A stretch of 64,000 bases of DNA from Crossiella sp. CA-258035 (lineage in GTDB: Bacteria > Actinomycetota > Actinomycetes > Mycobacteriales > Pseudonocardiaceae): the NCBI RefSeq assembly GCF_030064675.1, contig NZ_CP116413.1:8647501-8711500 (forward strand). The letters run 5' to 3'. Shown piece after piece: positions 1,920 to 25,426 of this stretch (positions are counted from its first letter, which is position 1; each line of letters opens with the position of its first letter). The position numbers and the translations under genes were made by a program. The notes beneath the pieces are model-generated. The model had not been told where the DNA came from and searched no databases. It saw nothing but the letters and a program-made list of their open reading frames with translations.

Positions 1920-2120
1920 TGCGGAACTCCCTGGGAACGTGGCCGAGGTACAGAACCACGCTACGCGCCCCCCACCACCGCTTCACGGGAAGGCAACCCA
2001 AACCACAAGCGAAACCACAGACGCGAACAACTTGTCGCGAAAAAGGCGTGGCGCGCGGCAACACCAACCACCGCGGCGTCGCGACCAAAGGTCACGCGCA
2101 GCAAGACCGCGCGCTGCCCC

Positions 2121-2303
2121 GTTGCGAAAGAGGCGTGGCGCGCCAGCGACACGCCGGGCTCTTAACCAGCGACGGGGTTGATTTTTCGCGTCGTGCGTTC
2201 GTGCCCTCGACACACCGAAGCTTGCTTCGGGGGTGTGTCGAGGGCACGAACGCACGACTCTAAGAGCGAAAAATCCCGCGCGCGGAGCGCGCCAATGTCA
2301 CAG
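2121..2303 (-). repeat. Intergenic hairpin element, copy A
   Basis: This element begins directly at the hemD stop codon and matches a second copy at 20117-20296 almost end to end. In transcript (minus) sense it holds an intrinsic terminator (2292-2278, T-run 2273-2269), then a very long hairpin: a 10-bp outer stem (2180-2189 with 2266-2275), a 27-bp perfect stem (2190-2216 with 2232-2258) and an inner CGAAGC/GCTTCG stem. After that comes a conserved tail containing AGGCGTGGCGCGC. The tail motif is partly repeated at about 2035-2060, beside the element. The rest of the gap (1920-2034) shows nothing recognisable. The element encodes no protein. Function unknown; see the findings. Confidence 0.85.
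2278..2292 (-). terminator. Intrinsic terminator after hemD
   Basis: On the minus strand a GCGCGC-TCC-GCGCGC hairpin is followed by GGGATTTTT. It lies 11 bases past the hemD stop codon. The T-run is also one arm of the large hairpin of repeat copy A, so termination and the larger fold compete for the same bases. Confidence 0.75.
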
Positions 2304-3833
2304 TCACCGTCGGGCGCGCTTGGTCTTGCGAGGTGGCGGCAGTGCCCCCTCGGCCCGCAACCGAGCCGCGTGATCCGCCAGCGCGTCCACCAGCGCGGGC
2401 ACCTGGGCGACCTCCGGCTGCACATCCACCCGCAACCCGAACTCGATCGCCGTCTCCGCGGTCTGCGGCCCGATACAAGCCACGATCGTCCGGGTGTGCG
2501 GCTTGCCCGCGATCCCGACCAGGTTCCGGACCGTCGACGAGGAGGTGAAGCACACCGCGTCGAACCCGCCGGTCTTGATCATCTCGCGGGTGTCGGCGGG
2601 CGGCGGCGCGGCGCGCACCGTGCGGTACGCGGTCACGTCGTCGGGTTCCCAGCCGCGCTCGCGCAGGCCGGCCGCCAGGGTCTCGGTGGCGATGTCCGCG
2701 CGGGGCAGCAGGATCCGGTCGACCGGGTCGAAGATGTCGTCGTGCGGCGGGAAGTCGGCCAGCAGGCCCTCGCTGGACTGGTCGCCGGAGGGCACCAACT
2801 CGGGGGTGATGCCGAAGGAGCGCACCTTCGCCGCGGTGGCCTCGCCGATGCAGGCGATCTTCACCCCGGAGAACGCGCGGGCGTCCAGGCCGAACTCCTC
2901 GAACTTCTCCCACACCGCGCGCACCGCGTTGGTGGAGGTGAAGATCACCCACTGGTAGCGGCCGTCGACCAGGCCCTTGACCGCGCGTTCCATCTGCGCG
3001 GGGCTGCGCGGCGGCTCCACCGAGATGGTGGGCACCTCGACCGGGATGGCGCCGTGCGCGCGCAGCCGGTCGCTCATCTCGCCGGCCTGCTCCTTGGTGC
3101 GCGGCACCAGCACCCGCCAGCCGTACAGGGCCCGGGACTCCCACCAGGAGAGCTTGCTCCGGTTGCCCACCGAGCTGCCCACGGTGACCACCAGCGGGCC
3201 GTTGAGCTCGCCGGCGTCGGCGGCCAGCGAGGCCAGCGTGGAGTCGATGGTGCGCTGGGCGCAGCTGGTGCCCTCGGTGGTGACCGCGGCCGGGGTCTGC
3301 GGCGCCAGGCCGTACTCCACCAGCGAGGACGCCGCCTCGGCCAGGTGGCTCGCGGAGGCGTGCAGCACCAGGGTGCCGGGCGCGCCGGCCAGGGCGGCCC
3401 AGTCCACGCTGCCGCGCACGTCGGCCTCGGTGTGCACCGCGCCGAGCGCGACACCCGCGTAGGCGGGCACCGCGGTGCCCGCGGCCACGCCGGGGATGAC
3501 GTCGAAGGCGACGCTGGTCTTGGCCACGGCCTGCGCCTCGGCCACCACCGCGTCGGCGGTCAGCGGGTCACCGGCGACCAGGCGGATCACCGAGCGGCCG
3601 TTCTTGGCCTCGGTGGCCAGGTCCTTGGCCACATCGGCCGGGTCGCCGACGGCGGGGCGGACCTCGATGCCCTCGGGGGCGAGCGCCAGCACCTCCTGCG
3701 GGACGTCCGGGTCGGTCACCACCAGCTCGGCGCTGGTGAGCAACTGCTGCGCCCGGACGGTGAGCAGGCCCAGGTCACCGGGACCGGAGCCGACGAAGGC
3801 GATCCGTCCGGGGGTCTTGCGTGCGCGGGTCAT
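2304..3833 (-). CDS. hemD: Fused uroporphyrinogen-III C-methyltransferase / uroporphyrinogen-III synthase
   Basis: A 509-residue two-domain protein. Residues 1-250 form a tetrapyrrole methylase domain with the SAM-binding loops VGSGPGDLGLLTVRA (residues 14-28) and VIRLVAGDPL. Residues 260-495 form the HemD domain, which cyclises hydroxymethylbilane to uroporphyrinogen III; typical elements are VIFTSTNAV, CIGEATAAKV and CFTSSSTV. The methylase part would make precorrin-2 for siroheme or cobalamin, though its activity cannot be judged from sequence. Such fusions are usual in actinobacteria. The tail is strongly basic (PPRKTKRARR). The start overlaps the hemC stop as TGATG, so the two are coupled. 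The gene ends at the terminator of repeat copy A and is the last gene of the rex-hemA-hemC-hemD operon. Confidence 0.95.
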   Translation of the reverse strand: MTRARKTPGRIAFVGSGPGDLGLLTVRAQQLLTSAELVVTDPDVPQEVLALAPEGIEVRPAVGDPADVAKDLATEAKNGRSVIRLVAGDPLTADAVVAEAQAVAKTSVAFDVIPGVAAGTAVPAYAGVALGAVHTEADVRGSVDWAALAGAPGTLVLHASASHLAEAASSLVEYGLAPQTPAAVTTEGTSCAQRTIDSTLASLAADAGELNGPLVVTVGSSVGNRSKLSWWESRALYGWRVLVPRTKEQAGEMSDRLRAHGAIPVEVPTISVEPPRSPAQMERAVKGLVDGRYQWVIFTSTNAVRAVWEKFEEFGLDARAFSGVKIACIGEATAAKVRSFGITPELVPSGDQSSEGLLADFPPHDDIFDPVDRILLPRADIATETLAAGLRERGWEPDDVTAYRTVRAAPPPADTREMIKTGGFDAVCFTSSSTVRNLVGIAGKPHTRTIVACIGPQTAETAIEFGLRVDVQPEVAQVPALVDALADHAARLRAEGALPPPRKTKRARR

Positions 3834-20116: not shown

Positions 20117-20296
20117 GTTGGGAGGCGTGGCGCGCCAGCGACACGCCGGGCCTTTTGACCCAGCGGTGGGTTTGATTTTTTCGCGTCGTGCGTTCGTGAC
20201 CCCGACACTCCGAAGCTTGCTTCGCGTGTGCCGGGGTCACGAACGCACGACTCAAGAGCGAAAAAATCCCGCGCGCGGAGCGCGCCAATGTGACAG
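20117..20296 (-). repeat. Intergenic hairpin element, copy B
   Basis: This is the second copy of the element at 2121-2303, in the same orientation relative to transcription. It lies between the thioesterase stop codon (15 bases away) and proC. It has the terminator (20285-20271), an 11-bp outer stem (20174-20184 with 20258-20268) and a 24-bp stem (20185-20208 with 20228-20251) with a single A-C mismatch, which becomes G-U if the minus strand is transcribed. Compared with copy A, two base pairs in the stem are changed on both sides together, keeping the pairing. No protein is encoded. Confidence 0.85.
20271..20285 (-). terminator. Intrinsic terminator after the thioesterase gene
   Basis: The same GCGCGC-TCC-GCGCGC hairpin plus T-run as after hemD, here within repeat copy B and about 25 bases past the thioesterase stop codon. 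Confidence 0.75.
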
Positions 20297-20310: not shown

Positions 20311-21141
20311 CTAGTCCACCGGCGTCAAAGCCAGCTGCCGGGTCTGGCAGACCAGACGGCCGGTGCTGTCGATCACCGTGGTGTCCTCGTCGAACCACTG
20401 CCCATAAACAGCCTTCGACTCCACCGACAACCGCAACCACCCCGGCGCGGGCCGGGACCGCAGCAACGCCGTCAGCTGCACCGTGGGCGACCACGACAGC
20501 CGCCCCAGGTTGAACGTCACCGGCATCGAGATGTCCCCGGCCACCAACGCGAACAACGGATCCGGCTGCCCCTCCCGCGGCCGCACCCACAACCGCAGCC
20601 GCAACGGACTGGTGTGGTTGTCCGTCAGAAAGCCCGCACCCTCCGGATCCAGCATCAGCTGACAGGCCTTCGCCACCCGGAACACCTTGGCGGCCTGCGT
20701 AGCGCCCACCTCGATCGCCCGCGCGGGCGGCTCGGCGGGCAGGTCCGGCAGATCCGTCCAGGCCGCAGGGTCATCCGGCAACCGCCCAGTCGTGACCATG
20801 GCGTGCACGCACACCCGGCCACGCTGTTCCAGCTCCGTCTTGACCACGGTCACGGTCCGCCCCGCCTTGACCACGCTGGTGCGCAGCATCACCGGCCCCA
20901 GCTCCGGCGGGTGCAGGAAGTCCGCGCCCACGCTGAGCGGGTCGGCCGCGGTCGCGCCGCCTGCCTCGGCGGTGGTGACCGCGGCCCTGGCGAGCAGGGC
21001 CAGCAGGTAGCCGCCGTGGGGTTTGCCGGCGATGGTCCAGTCCGCGGCCAGCTCGGCGGTGAAGCTTCCGTCACCCATCGGGCGGACCGCGGTGGCGAGT
21101 CCGAACGGGGTGATCCGGAGTGGATCCGTCCGGACCCTCAC
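20311..21141 (-). CDS. TesB-like acyl-CoA thioesterase family protein
   Basis: A 276-residue protein of the double hot-dog thioesterase family. The N-terminal half contains DWTIAGKPHGGYLLALLARA and DPLSVGADFLHPPELG, and the C-terminal half LRLRLWVRPREGQPDPLFAL and GQWFDEDTTVIDSTGRLVCQ. Family members hydrolyse acyl-CoA thioesters, but the physiological substrate here is unknown. The GTG start overlaps the proline dehydrogenase stop codon as GTGA. It ends just before repeat copy B. A similar hypothetical protein precedes proC in mycobacteria (Rv0499 position), so this is likely a backbone gene. Confidence 0.85.
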   Translation of the reverse strand: MRVRTDPLRITPFGLATAVRPMGDGSFTAELAADWTIAGKPHGGYLLALLARAAVTTAEAGGATAADPLSVGADFLHPPELGPVMLRTSVVKAGRTVTVVKTELEQRGRVCVHAMVTTGRLPDDPAAWTDLPDLPAEPPARAIEVGATQAAKVFRVAKACQLMLDPEGAGFLTDNHTSPLRLRLWVRPREGQPDPLFALVAGDISMPVTFNLGRLSWSPTVQLTALLRSRPAPGWLRLSVESKAVYGQWFDEDTTVIDSTGRLVCQTRQLALTPVD

Positions 21142-22064
21142 CGCTTGCTGGCCAGAGCCCGGAGGAAGAAAGCGGTGTTCGCCGGTCGCTCGGCCAGTCG
21201 TCGCATCAGGTATCCGTACCACTCCTGGCCGTAGGGGATGTAGACCCGTACGGTCTCGCCCGCCTGAGCGAGCCGGAGCTGCTCCTCCGGACGGATGCCG
21301 TAGAGCATCTGGTATTCGTAGCTGCCGGGCTTGCGGTCGTGCCAGCGGGCACGCTCGTCGATGATGCCCACCAGCCGCGGGTCGTGGGTGGCGAACATCG
21401 GGTAGCCCTCGCCCTGCAGCAGCGTGTTGGCGCAGCGCACGTAGCTCAGGTCCACCTCGTGCGGGGCCTGGTAGGCCACAGACTCGGGCTCCTTGTACGC
21501 GCCCTTGCACAGCCGGACCCTGGAGCCGGGGCCGGAGAGCTCGCGGCAGTCGTCCAGGGTGCGGCGCAGGTAGGCCTGGAGCACCGCGCCCACCCACGGC
21601 CAGCTCCGGCGCAGCTCGGCGAGCACGCGCAGGGTGGAGTCGGTGGTGGTGTGGTCCTCCATGTCCAGGGTGACCGTGGTGCCGCACTGTTCGGCGGCCG
21701 CGCAGATCCGGGAGGCGTTGTCCAGCGCGAGCCGCTCGTCCAGGGCCTGGCCGACCGCGGACAGCTTCACGCTGACCTCGGCCGAGGGCGCCAGGCCCGC
21801 GGAGTGCAGCTGGTCCAGCAGCTGGAGGTAGGACTGGACGGTGACCTCGGCCAGCTCCCGGTCGGTGGTGTCCTCGCCGAGGTAGTCCAGGGTCACGGTC
21901 AGCCCGTCGGCGACCAGCTTGGTGGTCGCGGCGACGGCGTCCTCGGTGGTCTCACCGGCCACGAAACGGCGCACCACGTCCCTGGACACGGGAGCGGTGC
22001 CGACCAGTCGCCGGATGCCGTCGTTTCTGGCAGCGGCGAGGATCAAGGCGCGCAACGGGTTCAC
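21138..22064 (-). CDS. Proline dehydrogenase
   Basis: A monofunctional FAD enzyme that oxidises proline to pyrroline-5-carboxylate. The 308-residue protein carries the barrel motifs EVSVKLSAVGQALDE, VTLDMEDHTTTD, VRLCKGAYKEP and the FAD/substrate signature YIPYGQEWYGYLMRRLAERP followed by ANTAFFLRAL. I prefer GTG 22064 (V-N-P-L-R-A) because TACAGT lies eight bases upstream as a leaderless -10 and because the family starts near here; GTG 22088 would add eight residues. It is coupled to the thioesterase gene. No P5C dehydrogenase gene is in the window. Confidence 0.92.
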   Translation of the reverse strand: MNPLRALILAAARNDGIRRLVGTAPVSRDVVRRFVAGETTEDAVAATTKLVADGLTVTLDYLGEDTTDRELAEVTVQSYLQLLDQLHSAGLAPSAEVSVKLSAVGQALDERLALDNASRICAAAEQCGTTVTLDMEDHTTTDSTLRVLAELRRSWPWVGAVLQAYLRRTLDDCRELSGPGSRVRLCKGAYKEPESVAYQAPHEVDLSYVRCANTLLQGEGYPMFATHDPRLVGIIDERARWHDRKPGSYEYQMLYGIRPEEQLRLAQAGETVRVYIPYGQEWYGYLMRRLAERPANTAFFLRALASKR

Positions 22065-25245: not shown

Positions 25246-25251
25246 AGGGCG

Positions 25252-25412
25252 GCCGGTCCACGCGGGCCTCGGTCGTGGAGCGTCGGAGTCCAGTTCGTTC
25301 CTGGCAAGGCGCCGTGGTGGCCGCGTACCGGTGTTGTACGTGGCCACCACGGCAACGCGGCCAGGGACGAACTGGGCCCGACGATCCGCGGCCGAGGCCC
25401 GCGTGGACCGGC
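25252..25412. repeat. 161-bp near-perfect palindrome
   Basis: Two arms of 77 bases (25252-25328 and 25336-25412) are inverted copies with a 7-base loop. By hand alignment they match at roughly 85% of positions with two small bulges; the outer 20 bases and the inner CCGTGGTGGC blocks are identical. It fills most of the regX3-ppx gap. No protein is encoded and no similar sequence was noticed elsewhere in the window. It could be a small structured RNA or a miniature inverted-repeat element. Confidence 0.85.
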
Positions 25413-25426
25413 CTAGGCCAATCGGC

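Follow-up and report, generated by a model that had tools for sequence, protein, structure and literature searches.

A dispersed giant-hairpin element at gene ends in Crossiella genomes

Hairpins at gene ends are commonly viewed as either terminators serving the host or selfish repeats. In the parts of one account that describe them, REP/BIME sequences (GTAG and CGTC super-families) are dispersed palindromes of 20–40 bp with an unpaired GTAG or CGTC tag, which lie between convergent or tandem genes, often <20 bp from convergent gene ends, and for the CGTC families there seems to be no dedicated transposase (PMC3733652). ERIC/IRU and Correia/NEMIS repeats, as far as the relevant passages of their description extend, are intergenic sequences of ∼105–155 bp that form long stem-loops, are transcribed and affect neighbouring mRNA, and they have terminal inverted repeats, TA termini and target duplications (PMC2229807). 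Two further descriptions, each drawn on in part, concern terminators: SPRITE of S. pneumoniae is a small dispersed repeat resembling a rho-independent terminator (PMC10969869), and in intrinsic terminators of low-GC firmicutes an A-rich stretch pairs with the U-run (PMC1590033).

We analyzed a window of 64,000 nucleotides from Crossiella sp. CA-258035 (contig NZ_CP116413.1, positions 8,647,501–8,711,500), in which an intergenic hairpin element had been predicted in two copies, and compared five Crossiella genomes (G000–G004, G000 being the window's own genome of 9.17 Mb). On balance, the element is probably a non-autonomous, genus-specific, REP/MITE-like cassette of ∼180 bp that serves as an exchangeable terminator at gene ends.

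Architecture and distribution of the element

Copy A occupies positions 2121–2303 of the window (+ strand, the canonical orientation; alignment, genome search as locus L019, and model match) and copy B positions 20117–20296 (+; alignment and genome search as L001). As the original prediction stated, they can be aligned end to end and both follow a minus-strand gene; the sequence in common extends from P1 to CAATGTNACAG. Pfam matches identify the two genes as a tetrapyrrole methylase plus uroporphyrinogen-III synthase (HemD) gene at 2304–3833 for copy A and an acyl-CoA thioesterase family gene at 20311–21687, with its stop at 20311, for copy B.

Read on the + strand, the element consists of a leader, hairpin P1 (GGCGTG-gCGC-GCCA-GCGa-CACGCC), a weak P2 (ACC...GGT), the giant hairpin P3, hairpin P4 (GCGYGC-GGA-GCRCGC) and then CAATNNNACAG. 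P3 starts with a T-run and ends with an A-run, contains an asymmetric bulge (∼TCARGA) and carries an apical GAAG-CUUG-CUUC. Copy A has P1 at 2132–2155 (+; GGCGTG..CACGCC followed by a short T-tract, from the sequence and helix 1 of the structure alignment), P3 at 2180–2275 (+; T5/A5 tracts paired, with the same apical motif), P4 at 2278–2292 (−; helix 5 of the structure alignment) and a 3′ end, CAATGTCACAG, at 2293–2303 (+; by sequence) that adjoins the stop codon of the minus-strand gene (2304–2306). The corresponding hairpins of copy B lie at 20124–20147 (P1, +; sequence and fold), 20174–20268 (P3 with T6/A6, +; fold) and 20271–20285 (P4, −). In the copy B stem, GATTTTTTCGC pairs with GCGAAAAAATC, followed by 20 pairs, one A-C mismatch and 3 pairs; the T-run is thereby one strand of the long stem, as had been proposed.

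About 8 nt (TGGCGCGC) recur in inverted orientation near both element ends, and the same bases belong to P1 and P4. The T- and A-runs change together among copies (T6/A6, T5/A5, TGTTTT/AAAACA and CGTTTT/AAAACG, with two unequal cases), and G002 copies have a P1 of different sequence in which the hairpin is still formed (by eye). Folding energies, computed on copy B only, were −100.8 kcal/mol for the + strand (z = −8.1) and −108.6 kcal/mol for the minus strand (z = −9.8), with 0 of 200 shuffles as low in either case. A search of the 64 kb against Rfam gave no match above the gathering score, and the long stem of copy A had sub-threshold microRNA matches only.

Two irregular forms were also seen. 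At locus L013 (G000:C1:441284–441463) the apical part of P3 points the opposite way to the element ends, as if recombination between the arms had flipped it. A stray partial 5′ module, with the rest of the element absent, lies at 2034–2056 (+), 87 bp upstream of copy A's own module, of which it is a direct repeat with 91% identity.

A search of G000 located the element at 27 distinct places, each at E 4.1e-23 or better, plus fragments; most remaining rows were the same places on the opposite strand. With so many places in one genome, the likeness of copies A and B is not a matter of chance. A covariance model (R1) built from 76 copies gave 27, 12, 23, 17 and 18 matches of at least 100 bits in G000, G001, G002, G003 and G004, respectively (97 by hand count, most of them its training copies), so the further copies sought after the original prediction occur both in this genome and in related Crossiella.

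The family has so far been seen only in the genus Crossiella. In a collection that represents 84,980 species by a single genome each and may omit the window's own genome, a pattern for the 3′ end matched 23 stretches, all in Crossiella sp. SN42 and S99.2. Applied to 249 Pseudonocardiaceae genomes, the same pattern was positive in five, all Crossiella, and in 0 of the 244 others. When R1 was run over 100 drawn genomes of the family, four Crossiella genomes scored strongly and one of the 96 others (G011) gave a match of 39.9 bits, which we did not count as a member since its score resembles that of the stem read on the wrong strand; strict filters with 27 candidates scored per genome were used for these 96, so weak relatives could escape. 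Among the titles listed for literature on Crossiella and repeats, none concerns repeats in its genome or describes this family. Within G000, none of the 27 copies falls between 3.0 and 5.9 Mb, a stretch of ∼2.9 Mb opposite the origin (dnaA at 592–1077) in which the hairpin family B described below is present.

Covariation and the folded strand

For structural comparison we collected 88 copies with a regular expression, by which divergent copies are missed; 78 passed a length filter and 76 were aligned, two with internal deletions being left out. Copy B served as the template for the structure, and its mismatched pair at columns 93/122 stands outside the main counts. Across the 76 copies, 99.4% of P3 cells are paired, and the 23 counted pairs comprise 7 that are invariant, 1 with one-sided variation and 15 changed on both sides. 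P4 (helix 5) is paired in 100% of cells; among all 88 copies its variable inner pair is C-G in 63 and U-A in 25, with no wobble, and its outer pair shows one U-G. Both-sided change is absent from P1 (90.2% of cells paired) and from the helix of the T- and A-runs (81.7%), where runs of unequal length are misaligned.

Relatedness among copies inflates covariation counts, and the compensating changes nonetheless exceed the controls in four of five measures. The whole-structure covariation score was 0.272, compared with 0.115 in shuffled alignments (reached by 0 of 500) and 0.028–0.063 when the structure was slid, and pairs with both-sided change numbered 17 against 14.8 in shuffles (1 of 500). 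The exception is the number of further pair types, which was not above chance (41 vs 41.5; 404 of 500). Alignment also confirmed the two compensating changes predicted between the window copies (C-G to A-T and T-A to C-G) as well as the A-C mismatch of copy B, and the additional copies contain compensating changes of their own. By comparison of aligned copies, the long stem is shown to be kept paired by matched mutations.

The remaining mismatches differ between strands. Over the 23 P3 pairs and 76 copies, the + strand has G-U in 103 cells and A-C in 4, or 26 vs 4 when combinations of genome, column and type are counted, spread over 11 vs 4 columns. A looser comparison of the arms in 79 of the 88 copies (9 skipped) found 143 G-U, 8 A-C and 117 other mismatches. 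Strand-blind processes, such as palindrome correction or selection on a cruciform, predict equal numbers; the asymmetry therefore indicates that the fold is kept on the + strand, the constrained one, as RNA or as single-stranded DNA. The original prediction had taken the minus strand to be folded, and this is contradicted by the + strand count of 103 G-U vs 8 A-C obtained when pair 93/122, with copy B's A-C, is included (24 pairs, 76 copies). Its proposal of selection on an RNA fold holds in part: covariation and wobble asymmetry speak for a single-strand fold, but not for RNA specifically, as single-stranded DNA is possible.

The same counts bear on whether the compensating changes could be a by-product of repair, arising through arm correction by template switching or through gene conversion with no selection on the fold. 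Block-wise differences between copies at one site, together with the inverted apex at L013, suggest that recombination between copies probably occurs. Arm-to-arm correction is strand-blind, however, and the ratio of G-U to A-C is 103:4 or 103:8. It should also erase mismatches, yet near the apex columns 93/122 retain A-G in 45 of 76 copies (otherwise A-T in 15, G-C in 9, A-C in 4, C-G in 2 and A-A in 1), and one-sided wobbles persist in many. We therefore disfavour the repair reading and regard it as improbable; selection on a folded + strand remains the preferred explanation of the stem.

The asymmetry does not clearly depend on the direction of neighbouring genes. G-U and A-C stand at 23:1 between two minus-strand genes, 55:2 between convergent genes, 15:0 between two plus-strand genes and 10:1 between divergent genes. 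Because it is much alike where no gene reads into the + strand, a simple role of the long stem at mRNA 3′ ends is doubtful, and the pattern speaks against a function solely in a neighbour's mRNA. The + strand fold of P3 may instead serve the element's own spread, through a single-stranded RNA or DNA form.

Gene ends and turnover between strains

Using a home-made gene finder whose gene starts are approximate, we placed 44 of the 88 copies between convergent, 36 between tandem and 6 between divergent genes, with 2 unknown; the 67 adjacent gene pairs of the window comprise 57 tandem, 5 divergent and 5 convergent. Among tandem copies, 24 have their 3′ end facing a stop codon and 12 lie the opposite way. 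Overall, a gene reads into the 3′ end in 70 of the 88 copies, and in the other 18 no gene faces P4. P4 lies ≤30 nt from the facing stop codon in 54 of the 88, one of them an overlapping gene call, and so looks like the terminator of the incoming gene.

A G+C-rich hairpin with a U-run behind a stop codon is the pattern of an intrinsic terminator, and P4 is predicted from its sequence to be one. In a terminator scan of copy A only, P4 with the T-run beyond it was positive on the minus strand, which would make it terminator-like for the gene at 2304–3833, and nothing was found on the + strand; P4 of copy B with its T6 run is terminator-like by sequence for the gene at 20311–21687. At the level of sequence, the scan and the facing stop codons support the predicted 3′-end terminator role for the minus-strand gene. 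Transcription of the gene reading in would end at P4 and its U-run, read on the minus strand, and P1 may weakly terminate the convergent gene on the other side, although a + strand terminator at P1 is conjecture given the negative + strand scan of copy A. No sigma-70-type promoter was found in a scan of 1900–2450, and no conserved block is visible among copies upstream of the leader. At L011, L026 and L086 the stop codon of the flanking gene is, by eye, apparently supplied or altered by the element end (TGATTGG, or loss of TAG).

The element might be purely host-serving, a 3′-end RNA module whose hairpin protects or terminates the transcripts of its neighbours, with each copy selected in place. 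Its location at gene ends, the facing stop codons and the terminator match are what such a module would show, as is the occupation of 15 sites, including both window copies, in at least two genomes. We consider this reading unlikely, since the + strand asymmetry is of much the same strength where no neighbour reads in and presence varies at many sites between near-identical strains.

Ten sites are occupied in both G000 and G004, of which nine could be compared because L018/L097 is cut by a contig end. Their flanks are ∼93–98% identical and the elements only 0.80–0.95 identical, and in seven of the nine each of the two genomes has within it another copy with a higher identity. Among the G004 copies, the ortholog is the closest in one of the nine; taking every genome pair compared together, the ortholog is closest in 4 of 22.

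For sites not shared between these two genomes, 23 flanks were searched and 22 sites aligned, the minus copy at L018 being left out because of a contig end in G004. Of the 22, L015 had no match in G004 and four proved to be occupied in both (L008, L011 and L020 cut by a G004 contig end, and L081, whose G000 copy is truncated). Of the 17 remaining, 15 were measured; the left flanks of L004 and L023 did not align. The spacer is replaced by unrelated DNA of 8–146 bp at 13 of these 15, and the other two look like simple insertions (L003 with an overlap of 6 nt, L087 with 2 nt). Outgroups share the element-free form at 8 of the 13 replaced sites (by eye), indicating that the element came in there and that 8–61 bp were lost. 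By these comparisons, sites are shown to be gained, lost and refilled between strains that are ∼97% identical: near-identical genomes carry different cassettes at the same gene ends. New copies would often replace the old spacer between two genes, so that the host would keep a terminator while its sequence is exchanged.

Other hairpins may occupy the same places. At the L023 site, the ∼180-bp element is present in G000 and an ordinary terminator in G004; the hairpins found there in G001 and G003 are built of GTGTTGGCC units (family B) and TTGGGCCAACTGG-like units (family C), respectively. At L039 and L095 it is G004 that carries the ∼180-bp element (truncated in L095) and G000 that carries family B; a fourth hairpin occupies the L004 site in G004 and G003 (all by eye). 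With both strands counted and 40 candidates scored, family B gave 110 matches in G000, 119 in G001, 105 in G002, 102 in G003 and 2 in G004. Six B sites were tested in G004, and five had 0–6 bp between the matched flanks; the sixth did not align. Different hairpins at the same sites imply that Crossiella gene ends host several hairpin families.

These families have distinct makeups. Family B forms giant hairpins from facing arrays of ∼22-nt GTGTTGGCCGTTNTCGTACG units, many right behind stop codons, with ∼40 listed places in G000 (among L196–L225, e.g. G000:C1:7253825–7253936). Gene-end hairpins of family C, TTGGGCCAACTGGTACGCCC-like, were seen at L178, L193 and L195 in G003, and a AAGTTTTAGTTT..AAACTAAAACTT hairpin (family D) lies at L137 (G004) and L160 (G003), at a gene end that has the element in G000. 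Separately, positions 25251–25413 of the window hold a MITE-like insertion of 163 bp, unrelated to the hairpin family, with 36-nt terminal inverted repeats that are 92% complementary; the corresponding spacer of G004 and G001 lacks the segment.

Site turnover could also arise by homologous recombination with DNA of other strains, with crossovers in conserved genes, the element itself being hardly mobile and convergent spacers perhaps changing fast in general. The replaced DNA spans roughly the interval between the two gene ends, with no target duplication, and a given site holds different families from genome to genome, as such recombination would produce. As a control, 33 element-free spacers in the window are 83–100% identical to G004 and 15 outside the window 80–100%, but only one of these spacers is convergent (36 bp, 86%), so the control applies to tandem and divergent sites, and fast turnover of convergent spacers in general would be compatible with it. 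At tandem or divergent sites, where element-free spacers are conserved, 5 of the 13 replacements nevertheless took place. Recombination also leaves unexplained how one family came to be at ∼27 places, and why family B exceeds 100 matches in G000 and has 2 in G004. We regard it as a serious but doubtful alternative to an exchangeable terminator cassette.

A bolder interpretation is that gene-end spacers in Crossiella constitute an exchangeable slot, into which a hitherto unknown process, operating via a single-stranded (perhaps RNA) form, writes unrelated giant-hairpin terminator families while deleting the old spacer. We put this forward only tentatively and think it rather unlikely to be right; if it were true, terminators would behave as mobile cassettes. 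For the ∼180-bp cassette, two phenomena could be tested in one organism, namely REP-like spread without a known transposase and harmless replacement of terminators.

Mobility and likeness to described repeats

The original prediction suggested a REP/MITE-like element, and the dispersed nature of the family agrees with this; a conserved tag, a Y1 transposase in its own genome, a general target duplication and an autonomous relative with the same 3′ end do not appear. GTAG is missing from the element, and a CGTC within the stem reads CGTT or CGTG in other Crossiella and is neither unpaired nor conserved. Y1_Tnp (PF01797) had no match in G000, G002 or G004 and was present in G001 and G003. The 15 measured G000–G004 sites show no general target-site duplication, with clean insertions at 2 of 15, and all 22 exact matches to one 3′-end pattern in G000 lie at known copies or fragments, none at an autonomous relative. 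No replication-strand bias is evident among the 27 copies (12 vs 15 by hand count, with dnaA at 592–1077 and the terminus assumed opposite). As another candidate we considered attC sites, which are recognized by RYYYAAC/GTTRRRY boxes; visual inspection of the element ends showed no such boxes.

Hairpins near both ends, the strand-specific fold and a gene-end location like that given for REPs in the corresponding part of PMC3733652 would fit a REP or IS200/IS605-type element moved by a Y1 transposase (RAYT). Such an element is nevertheless very improbable here, because Y1_Tnp is absent from three of the five Crossiella genomes, G000 included, because orientation shows no replication bias, and because the two REP tags behave as described above. 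The better reading is of an element that works like a REP or SPRITE type. Because the tag, Y1 transposase and general target duplication were not found, we do not file it as a member of either group.

It appears to be both terminator and repeat, with a strand-specific covariation signal. Compared with REP/BIME as described in the parts of that literature cited above, it is likewise dispersed, palindromic and located between convergent or tandem genes, but it is longer (∼180 bp), has several helices, lacks a conserved tag and often takes the place of a whole spacer. With ERIC/IRU and Correia/NEMIS, so far as their cited description goes, it shares an intergenic position and long stem-loops, but not a general target duplication. 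The A-run/U-run pairing at gene ends recalls the firmicute terminators in the portion of that work cited, except that in Crossiella the two runs close a further stem of >20 pairs, which is dispersed and shows covariation. Like SPRITE, the family is dispersed and intrinsic-terminator-like, although it belongs to a different phylum; relative to the part of the SPRITE description used here, the giant covarying stem and the exchange of spacers are features of the Crossiella element.
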